Shown one piece after another: positions 22,101 to 24,195 of a DNA stretch of 64,000 nucleotides. Position numbers and translations under genes: made by a program. This stretch comes from Pezicula radicicola. Taxonomy: Eukaryota; Ascomycota; Leotiomycetes; Helotiales; Dermateaceae. The stretch is from positions 1,382,898-1,446,897 of the forward strand of contig PDUO01000002.1 of the NCBI GenBank assembly GCA_003008705.1, written 5' to 3'. Position 1 is the first letter of the stretch. Each line of letters begins with the position of its first letter. A model generated the notes under the pieces. It saw nothing but the letters and a program-made list of their open reading frames with translations, was not told the DNA's origin and ran no database searches.

Positions 22101-24051
22101 TCTGGGTTTAGTTTACAGCCTTACTTAAATACAGTGAGACACGAATTATGGTTAAAAGAGTAAGTGTTAGAAATCTAGAATGTAAGCGTCTATCTATCAC
22201 ATGAACATTATGAATCTATGGAATTCAATTGAGTTGAGAAGTCAAGTGACTCACCTAAATCATGTGAATTACTCAAATTCAACGAGATTCCTACATCAAG
22301 TGACTCATTCAAAGCAAGTTAGTTAGTCAAAGGAGATTCCTATATTGAGTCATTGAGAGCAAGGAAGTTACTTAAATCAAGTCAGTTCCCTAAATAAAAT
22401 AATTCTTAATCATATTTGCACATTAAAGATCTAGCGAACTTACATAACCGGCAAAAAATATCGTTTGCAGCACTGTATCTTCCGTAGCGGTACACGAAAA
22501 GCACTAAGCTAAGCGAGGAAGTGAAAGAGGAGTAGGTTAGTTACTCTTGTCAGGTTCCCATTAAACAGGCATTGTAATTACTTTGAAGTACGAACCACGT
22601 TTAAACTCTAAATGCTTATGAAAGCAAAAAAATATTTCCTACTTCAGAAATCTAGCCATATGTAAAATAGCCCTTCAACTCTAGAAAGAATGCAAAGGAG
22701 CAGAATTCAACCCTAAACCGAGTACAGTACAATCTTAACTTGTATATTTTCTTAAAGATGTCTTCTCTTTTACTACTATAGATCTAACAAAGTCCTTCTA
22801 GCCAGCGAATTCAAATGAGGACATAGGTCTAGCTATACATGAATCTAGATATCACTATGTTGACTGTTAGTTACTATACTTTCCAATTACTACCATATTT
22901 GTGGTTTCTGAAGTAGTCAGGTAATGGAGCAGTCCCGTAAGTCCTTTGTAACTAACAACACTCTGGGTTTAGTGAGTAAATATACATTGCTAGTCTTCTA
23001 CTTTACTGCTACCTATATTCCTAAGCATCAAAATTTAATAACCCTTAACAATACAGTACTCAACAGGAAGCTTATGCCCCCTTAATGTATCTTGCATAAA
23101 ACACACGGCATTCGTATAAGTAAATTAAGTAAAAGTCCTTTTAAATAACCTAAAGAGCATAAAAGCATAAAAGAAATGTGTGCTTCAACTTTTACCTCAT
23201 CTATTATCTCCCCTAAAATATTTCAAGATAGGATCCGCTAACAGGATACATGCAACTCCAGTAGTGCTTGTTTTCTCAAGGAATTACCGACGAAGTCTTC
23301 CTTCGTCACTCCTTGCCATTAACTGGCTCCTCGCTCCTCGCTCTGTTTACTCGCCATGCTTTGACCGCGATCAACTTCTATAGCAGAGAAGGCTTTGGCT
23401 GAAGTTTTAGTAGCAGCAGTAGTGTGTGTAGAGAGAAAAAGTCTGTATCTGTTTTCAATAATCGCTATTTAGAAATTCTAAGTATTGTAGTAATTGCTGC
23501 AGCAAAAGGATGAGAAGATATTAGCTTATCTTCTAGATCTATATAGTATATTTTAAAGCAATCGGTCCAAGTAAAAATTTATCTAAATTCTAAGTAAGGT
23601 AAGATTAAACTCTTCATCACAAAGTTTTATCAACTCTCCTTCTAATATAAACCTCAACCTTCTTACTCCTAAGTTTTCTTTTCTCCTAGTTTAAACCTTA
23701 AAGATATATCTACTATTTAAGTGTCCCATTTTCTAGATTTAAACTCTTGTCTCCGGGGATTTTCTCTTTTCCCCATAGCTATATCCACACAGGAAGTAGA
23801 AAGAATAAGAGAAAATCTGTCCAGGATTAAATTCTCCACATACTAAAAAGTCTAATAAACTTTTCTATACCAGTTCTAAAACACCAAGTATAACACACTA
23901 AAAAACAAGAAAACAAAAACACCACCTAATATACCATACTCACCTCCTCCCCTTCCCAATCCAACCCTACCACCCGTCCCCAACCCAACTTCATAACACC
24001 CAATAACGCCCTACCCCCCAACAAACAAATCAAAACCCATACATCTAAAAA
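19118..24051. other. Gene-poor, mostly AT-rich stretch of 4.9 kb
   Basis: The first kilobase holds the eIF4G promoter and leader. The rest shows only short frames without domains, splice context or codon bias. It contains TACCTA/TAGGTA-rich patches (about 20828-20845 and 21518-21545) and an 18-bp-period repeat (22230-22400). 21.9-23.9 kb is strongly AT-rich with stops in every frame. It could be a RIP-mutated transposon relic, but I see no recognisable transposase, terminal repeat or target-site duplication. Confidence 0.5.
22230..22400 (+). repeat. Degenerate 18-bp-period repeat, copy B
   Basis: Consecutive 18-mers can be read, including TCATTCAAAGCAAGTTAG, TTAGTCAAAGGAGATTCC and TTACTTAAATCAAGTCAG. 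They share the TTAxTCAAA-CAAGT core with the arrays at 30.9 and 33.2 kb. Confidence 0.7.
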
Positions 24052-24182
24052 GGCCTGCTGGCCCAATGGCAAGGCGCTTGACTACGAATCAAGAGATTGC
24101 AGGTAAGCATACATACGTTCTTCTAATCTTCATACACCAATATACTAATATCACCAATTAGGTTCGATCCCTGCGTAGGTCA
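24052..24182 (+). tRNA. tRNA-Arg(ACG) interrupted in the T arm by a 59-bp intron-like insert
   Basis: The joined halves 24052-24102 and 24162-24182 form a complete tRNA. The acceptor stem is GGCCTGC with GTAGGTC (two G-U pairs) and A73. The D region is TGGCCCAATGGCAAGGCG, the anticodon arm CTTGA-CTACGAA-TCAAG, and the T arm GCAGG-TTCGATC-CCTGC, fully paired only after joining. The anticodon ACG reads arginine CGN codons, and the D-arm and anticodon sequences agree with fungal tRNA-Arg(ACG). There is no insertion at the usual 37/38 site. Instead 59 bases sit between positions 52 and 53 (see the insert entry). The B box GGTTCGATCC is still continuous because the insert ends in G, so internal promotion by TFIIIC may persist. 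A T6 terminator follows. It is functional only if the insert is removed from the RNA; otherwise it is a pseudogene. Confidence 0.85.
24103..24161 (+). other. Spliceosomal-type intron inside the tRNA-Arg gene
   Basis: The insert starts GTAAGC, ends AATTAG, is 59 nt long and carries TACTAAT at 24143-24149, placing a branch adenosine at about 24148, 13 nt before the end of the insert. These are the features and size of the mRNA introns in this window. Both junctions carry AGGT (CAGGTAAG and TTAGGTTC), as expected if a proto-splice site was duplicated on insertion. Removal by the tRNA endonuclease would need a bulge-helix-bulge-like fold, which I do not see but cannot exclude. Confidence 0.75.
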
Positions 24183-24189
24183 CTTATTC

Positions 24190-24195
24190 TTTTTT
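24190..24195 (+). terminator. Pol III terminator, T6
   Basis: Six consecutive T residues eight bases after the tRNA-Arg 3' end, with a further T5 tract shortly after. Confidence 0.7.

Follow-up and report, generated by a model that had tools for sequence, protein, structure and literature searches.

The window, which is the whole 64,000-nucleotide stretch of Pezicula radicicola DNA that was analyzed, contains a tRNA-Arg(ACG) gene at positions 24052-24182 of the forward strand. The gene consists of a 51-nt exon 1, a 59-nt insert, and a 21-nt exon 2 (Table 1). It was missed by both ARAGORN and Rfam (gathering score), neither of which gave a match in the window; once the insert is taken out, ARAGORN reports tRNA-Arg(acg). 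The coordinates, the two exon halves, and the insert with its GTAAG start, TACTAAT element, and terminal AG are all as given in the preliminary description of this locus. That description also held that a complete cloverleaf forms only if the insert is taken out. The T stem of the joined product has 5/5 pairs, but the word "only" is slightly too strong because the unjoined T stem already has 4/5 pairs, the last intron bases mimicking the T-stem strand. The junction can slide by up to two bases either way without changing the product.

Table 1. Features of the split tRNA-Arg(ACG) gene and its surroundings, in window coordinates
Feature	Positions	Strand	Basis or remark
CAACAAA, resembling a start-site element, 33 nt upstream of the mature 5' end	24019..24025	+	motif enrichment near unsplit tRNA genes; resembles the yeast Pol III start consensus
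Exon 1, tRNA positions 1-52	24052..24102	+	anticodon ACG at 24084-24086; no 37/38 intron
A box TGGCCCAATGG, intact	24059..24069	+	sequence; box consensus
Spliceosomal-type intron, 59 nt, between tRNA positions 52 and 53	24103..24161	+	splice signals and empty-site paralogues
5' splice site GTAAGC	24103..24108	+	intron tabulation
Branch site TACTAAT, whose branch A (24148) lies 13 nt from the intron end	24143..24149	+	intron tabulation
3' splice site TTAG	24158..24161	+	intron tabulation
B box GGTTCGATCCC, regenerated by the last intron G	24161..24171	+	sequence; box consensus
Exon 2, tRNA positions 53-73	24162..24182	+	ARAGORN on joined exons, and paralogues
T6 run resembling a Pol III terminator, beginning 8 nt past the tRNA	24190..24195	+	downstream T-run scan

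The search for uninterrupted copies that had been proposed with the preliminary description was carried out on one 61-Mb assembly of 152 contigs, and found five tRNA-Arg(ACG) genes elsewhere, each of which matches the joined window exons at 72/72 positions. These insert-free paralogues confirm the boundaries of the insert and place it at 52/53, away from the 37/38 site, as had been stated. All five carry a 37/38 intron, which the window gene lacks. For one protein-coding gene of the window the best protein match is from Phlyctema vagabunda (73% identity), and further named matches come from Helotiales. A chance match was rejected as an explanation of the insert on the grounds of its mRNA-like intron grammar and the exact empty-site paralogues.

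Split tRNA genes across the assembly

At least 18 tRNA genes, representing 10 isoacceptors, carry a spliceosomal-type insert, and there is one weak case in addition (tRNA-Gln(TTG), see below). The inserts interrupt the tRNA at seven positions, 4/5, 9/10, 10/11, 47/48, 49/50, 51/52, and 52/53, none of which is the 37/38 site, and 14 of the 18 genes contain a 37/38 intron as well. Five of the genes were found by the Rfam tRNA model, which uses no splice-signal criterion: two tRNA-Val(TAC) genes (C113 and C3), split at 47/48 and both with a 37/38 intron; tRNA-Thr(TGT) on C98, split in the acceptor stem at 4/5; tRNA-Lys(TTT) on C1, split at 9/10; and tRNA-Arg(TCT) on C62, split at 10/11. The last three were matched by the model from about the D arm on. 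A second tRNA-Lys(TTT) gene, on C63, is of the same type as the C1 copy, and on C89 a gene for tRNA-Arg(TCG) is interrupted at 52/53 by an insert of its own and lacks a 37/38 intron.

The remaining genes came from a search with a pattern consisting of a 5' splice site, AG, and a B box. Six tRNA-Asp(GTC) genes and one tRNA-Glu(CTC) gene are split at 51/52 and two tRNA-Ser(TGA) genes at 49/50; tRNA-Leu(AAG) on C114, split at 9/10, was recognized by inspection, as was the weak Gln(TTG) case; 24 of the 35 rows of this search were followed up. These ten pattern-found genes (Arg(ACG) excepted) were partly selected on their GTANG and AG signals. Three pattern searches, this one being the second in the list, gave 26, 35, and 23 matches versus 25, 51, and 10 for a reversed-pattern control; since the counts are not above the control in two of the three, the weight rests on the tRNA context of the matches. 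Recurrence of the inserts in 17 genes besides that of the window, five of them found without a splice-signal criterion, is more than chance would give. The spectrum of split positions is biased because the searches favor inserts near the A or B box, and the roughly 120 tRNA-like loci seen are a hand count rather than a census. Queries built from consensus tRNAs found five initiator-Met genes and one Ala gene; isotypes such as His, Trp, Tyr, Cys, and Gly(GCC) lie outside the survey.

A further tRNA gene, called Gly(TCC) with an Ile-like body, lies on the reverse strand of C109 (672923-673077, L087). Its anticodon loop is interrupted by 82 nt that include a long inverted repeat, AAGTCGTTCTGA...TCAGAACGACTT.

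The inserts share one grammar. All 18 begin with GTANG, end with AG, and contain a YTRAY branch site whose branch A lies 10-16 nt from the intron end; the 17 tabulated introns are 50-60 nt long, and that of the Leu gene is 57 nt with its branch A at 14. Twelve mRNA introns predicted de novo within the window, required to have GTRNG, a branch site, and an open frame on either side, are 47-75 nt long, two of which, with odd branch distances of 42 and 52, may be false. In a wider mRNA set drawn from the window and other loci (14 of 34 branch-site candidates had GTRNG) the length is 47-67 nt and the branch A lies at 9-18, the branch site and GTRNG having served as filters; these introns use GTAAGT, GTACGT, GTATGC, and similar 5' splice sites. 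A set of 42 introns assembled without a branch filter, 16 of which had CTRAY, was dropped. The size of the window insert thus agrees, as the preliminary description had it, with that of mRNA introns: 59 nt versus 47-67 nt in the filtered set. T runs of four or more are absent from all 18 tRNA introns and present in 6 of 27 mRNA introns (one-sided Fisher p 0.036), a weak contrast given this p value and the relatedness of the six Asp copies.

Beyond the splice signals the introns have little in common. Comparisons between introns at different sites (n=134) gave a mean score of 8.9, with three at 15.5-17.0, versus a mean of 8.2 and a top of 14.0 for shuffled sequences, and clear likeness is seen only among same-site copies of the same family. 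As the introns share grammar and not sequence, they do not look like introners, and an introner origin is not supported.

Transcription signals and U6 snRNA genes

A run of 5-10 Ts starts no more than 23 nt after the tRNA in all 17 split genes tested, a count taken without a random background. A CAACAAA-like motif (one mismatch or none) occurs between -45 and -8 in 40 of 51 unsplit tRNA genes versus 416 of 5000 random window positions. Nine of 17 split genes have the motif in this interval and 14 of 17 have it within 60 nt; among the six split Asp copies, five carry it solely at -48 to -58. None was found upstream of Asp C79, Ser C81, or Arg(TCT), for the last of which 42 nt of leader were searched. 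Judged by eye, the intron either leaves the A and B boxes untouched or restores most of their lost bases through its terminal AG. The exception is the first T of the A box, which is not restored in both Lys genes, Leu, and Arg(TCT), the four genes split at 9/10 or 10/11. In these four and in Thr, split at 4/5, the distance between start element and A box exceeds the normal one by 50-57 nt, which speaks against Pol III.

U6 snRNA is a Pol III transcript. A gene on the reverse strand of C3 (394362-394523, L146), which by its fungal U6 sequence we take to be the usual U6, contains two mRNA-type inserts of 63 and 53 nt, at CATTTG/GTCAATTTG and AGCATG/GCCCCTGC. The two inserts, which would be removed by splicing, suggest that this fungus tolerates introns in a Pol III transcript. 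A second U6-like gene (C146:17702-17803, L145) is divergent and uninterrupted at both of these sites; it is preceded by a TATAAA-like element and followed by a T8 run, and outscores the split gene in the search.

The displaced A box in five genes, together with the fact that spliceosomal splicing normally acts on Pol II transcripts, would fit a scheme in which the spliceosome does remove the inserts, and the tRNA parts are exons of a non-coding pre-RNA made by Pol II. Such an origin of the transcripts is unlikely. T runs close behind every split gene tested, start-like motifs in front of most, and A and B boxes that are kept or largely rebuilt speak against it, as do the absence of T runs of four or more from the introns and the presence of the same kind of inserts in one U6 gene.

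Exon conservation and decayed copies

ARAGORN detected a tRNA in the joined exons of all 18 genes, with the expected isotype in 17 (Glu was called Ser), and never called the right tRNA with the insert left in. Removal of shifted segments also gave some tRNA in 58 of 127 cases, so that tRNA detection alone proves little. Comparison with related genes gives a second view of the exons. For 13 of the 18 genes an empty-site paralogue matches the joined exons across the junction; the five Val, Lys, and Leu genes lack one. Seventeen genes, all but Leu, can be compared with a paralogue or a sister copy, and their exons show no change save for one base in one Asp copy and the 6:67 pair in Thr. The latter is the sole difference between tRNA-Thr(UGU) and its intact paralogue and is compensatory, A-T having become T-A. 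The joined exons of Arg(TCG) on C89 match one TCG paralogue at 72/72 positions and another at 71/72.

Within the Val pair and the Lys pair the exons are identical apart from the 37/38 intron. Their spliceosomal introns align at 39/53 (Val) and 32/51 (Lys) positions, with the splice signals kept. The Val flanks (55/80 and 59/85) are about as alike as unrelated flanks (51/92 to 59/81), and the Lys flank stretches are too short to judge. The Ser introns (44/53) and Asp introns (45/51) are still alike between copies, which marks these genes as younger duplicates whose exon identity may partly reflect young duplication.

Decayed tRNA copies also occur in the assembly. One of Lys type has exons 1 and 2 joined, with no intron (C82:142433, L148), another of Lys type keeps a branch site and AG (C2:1589670, L149), and a third is of Asp type (C131:349834, L153).

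The split genes themselves might be dead copies that gained an mRNA-type intron and were tolerated as pseudogenes beside intact ones. Intact paralogues do exist for 7 of the 10 isoacceptors, and there is an unrelated intact Lys(TTT) gene (L034). The weak case, tRNA-Gln(TTG) at C71:329060-329270 (L164), is possibly a decaying split gene: it has a GT-AG insert at 52/53, no clear branch site, and no T run of four in the approximately 40 nt seen downstream. Several intact Arg(ACG) genes were part of what the preliminary description named as pointing to a pseudogene, and with five such copies in the genome the window gene taken alone could likewise be a young dead copy. Loss of function is nonetheless improbable for the set, since the exons are intact in the 17 comparable genes, the decayed copies look different, the Thr change is compensatory, and the Val and Lys pairs retain their splice signals in introns that have otherwise diverged. 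Furthermore, both Val(UAC) genes that were found are split. The preliminary description had left a choice between a transcript spliced by the spliceosome and a copy killed by intron gain. The sequence pattern across the genome supports the first, and the second fits poorly with exons that have been kept; the killed-copy reading of the window gene is disfavored because of this pattern and not by the window gene alone.

With one Val gene as the query, a DNA search at E up to 10 gave the two split tRNA-Val(UAC) copies and no others. An exact 25-mer of Val(UAC) had 0 matches in two contig collections, which is uninformative since these are viral and prokaryotic. Uninterrupted genes exist for Asp, Glu, and Ser (at least one each), in addition to the unrelated Lys(TTT) gene, and dependence on the spliceosome is therefore argued only for Val(UAC).

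The Asp loci (L129, L130, L134, L135, L138, L141, and L152) comprise the six split genes and one uninterrupted gene, which have a conserved, longer leader in common. The leaders contain a small hairpin whose stem has changed on both sides, from AAGTG/CACTT to AAGTA/TACTT. A second, uninterrupted tRNA-Asp 3' half lies about 60-200 nt downstream in four of the six split loci (L129, L130, L135, and L141), and the other two have a short or decayed remnant of it. The uninterrupted gene, on C76, has a leader that matches that of C131 at 76/81 positions, a body, including the 37/38 intron, that matches that of C98 at 95/95, and a trailer that begins more like the downstream partial 3' halves. Given this composition, recombination with a downstream 3' half explains the gene as well as a precise intron loss through spliced RNA does, and the latter was not adopted.

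Removal of the introns and relation to known systems

Removal by the tRNA endonuclease (TSEN) would be a different route to the same product. Non-canonical introns of TSEN type are described for C. merolae and nucleomorphs in the available part of PMC4090602, and many of the nucleomorph ones are without a defined bulge-helix-bulge (BHB) according to that of PMC3978253. If the junction is slid by one base, with the same product, a central helix of 4/4 pairs is possible in both Arg inserts at 52/53; this helix is accompanied by only 2/4 outer pairs and in C89 depends on G-T pairs. The BHB check suggested in the preliminary description was made on 4 of the 18 inserts and gave no clear motif. At the GT-AG register the central/outer/inner pairs, out of four each, number 0/2/1, 2/2/2, 2/1/0, and 2/1/1 in the two Arg and the two Val inserts, no better than shuffled sequences; this leans against TSEN, in a test of little power since seven ordinary 37/38 introns also score 0-2/4 centrally (with 4/4 outer pairs). 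The GT, branch, and AG signals are not required by TSEN, and the yeast enzyme cuts strictly at 37/38 in the account given in the accessible text of PMC4033280. An origin of the inserts as TSEN substrates is accordingly very unlikely. Permanent retention of the insert, in a working tRNA with a giant variable region, is scarcely credible: the unjoined T stem has 5/5 pairs in Val and Ser and 4/5 in Asp, Glu, and the window gene, whereas it has only 2/5 in C89, and the inserts at 4/5, 9/10, and 10/11 and the splice signals would be left unexplained.

The window gene is thus very probably a functional nuclear tRNA-Arg(ACG) gene whose T arm is split by a U2-type spliceosomal intron, and one of at least 18 such genes. 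The claim of the preliminary description that a nuclear tRNA gene carries a spliceosomal-type intron is upheld by the intron grammar, the exact empty sites, the 18 genes split at seven positions, and the two U6 inserts. By sequence, the phenomenon is also larger than was reported there, in that such introns occur in tRNA genes genome-wide. The DNA itself shows the intron grammar, the exact empty sites in 13 genes, the conservation of the exons, and the recurrence, and from these we infer transcription and splicing as follows. Pol III would transcribe the split genes using the internal A and B boxes, the upstream start element, and the T-run terminator. The spliceosome would recognize GTANG, YTRAY, and AG, remove the 50-60 nt intron, and join the tRNA parts. 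In the 14 genes carrying both kinds of intron, the tRNA endonuclease would separately remove the one at 37/38.

Several known systems resemble this one in part. Rogers et al. (cited in PMC11782384) reportedly described in 1993 an mRNA-type intron in fungal nuclear 18S rDNA, which is likewise a spliceosomal-type intron in a fungal structural RNA gene, but in an rRNA and not a tRNA. Canonical 37/38 introns also interrupt nuclear tRNA genes and differ in site, signals, and machinery; nuclear tRNA introns are presented as endonuclease-processed in those parts of the review literature that were available. The fungal U6 snRNA and U3 snoRNA genes encode small structured non-coding RNAs and have spliceosomal introns in some copies and not in others, though they are not tRNA genes; as of 2017, in the available text of PMC5832005, no small structured RNAs other than U3 and U6 were known to contain introns often. 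The ectopic introns of C. merolae, nucleomorphs, and archaea split tRNA genes outside 37/38, sometimes along with a 37/38 intron. In the portions of PMC4090602 and PMC3978253 at hand, the latter of which covers BHB-mediated tRNA gene disruption, these are attributed to splicing endonucleases and BHB-like motifs, whereas the inserts described here have GT, branch, and AG signals like those of the host mRNA introns. Insertions in the D or T arm of eukaryotic tRNA genes are treated in the same portion of PMC4090602 as supposed pseudogenes, nucleomorphs and C. merolae excepted. Fungal introner-like elements offer a precedent for recurrent spliceosomal intron gain in one genome (PMC4457414, in its available part), but they are near-identical introns at many sites, unlike the tRNA introns, which have hardly more than the splice signals in common. 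Among open-licence PMC papers, none could be recognized from title and abstract as reporting spliceosomal introns in tRNA genes, and the accessible part of PMC6461891 holds nothing on them. Because ARAGORN and Rfam both missed the window gene, such genes may be overlooked elsewhere.

We lean, with less assurance, toward a wider proposal in which the spliceosome would be an obligatory tRNA-processing machine in this lineage. Pol III pre-tRNAs would contain introns just before the A or B box, the spliceosome and TSEN would act on the same molecule, and the supply of at least tRNA-Val(UAC) would be wholly dependent on spliceosomal splicing. If true, the machine that splices mRNA also helps to make tRNAs, and two RNA-processing pathways that are usually treated apart become joined. 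The split genes would then be cases of intron gain under strict structural constraint and a clean system in which to ask if Pol II is needed by the spliceosome, and the supply for translation would be tied to the capacity of the spliceosome.
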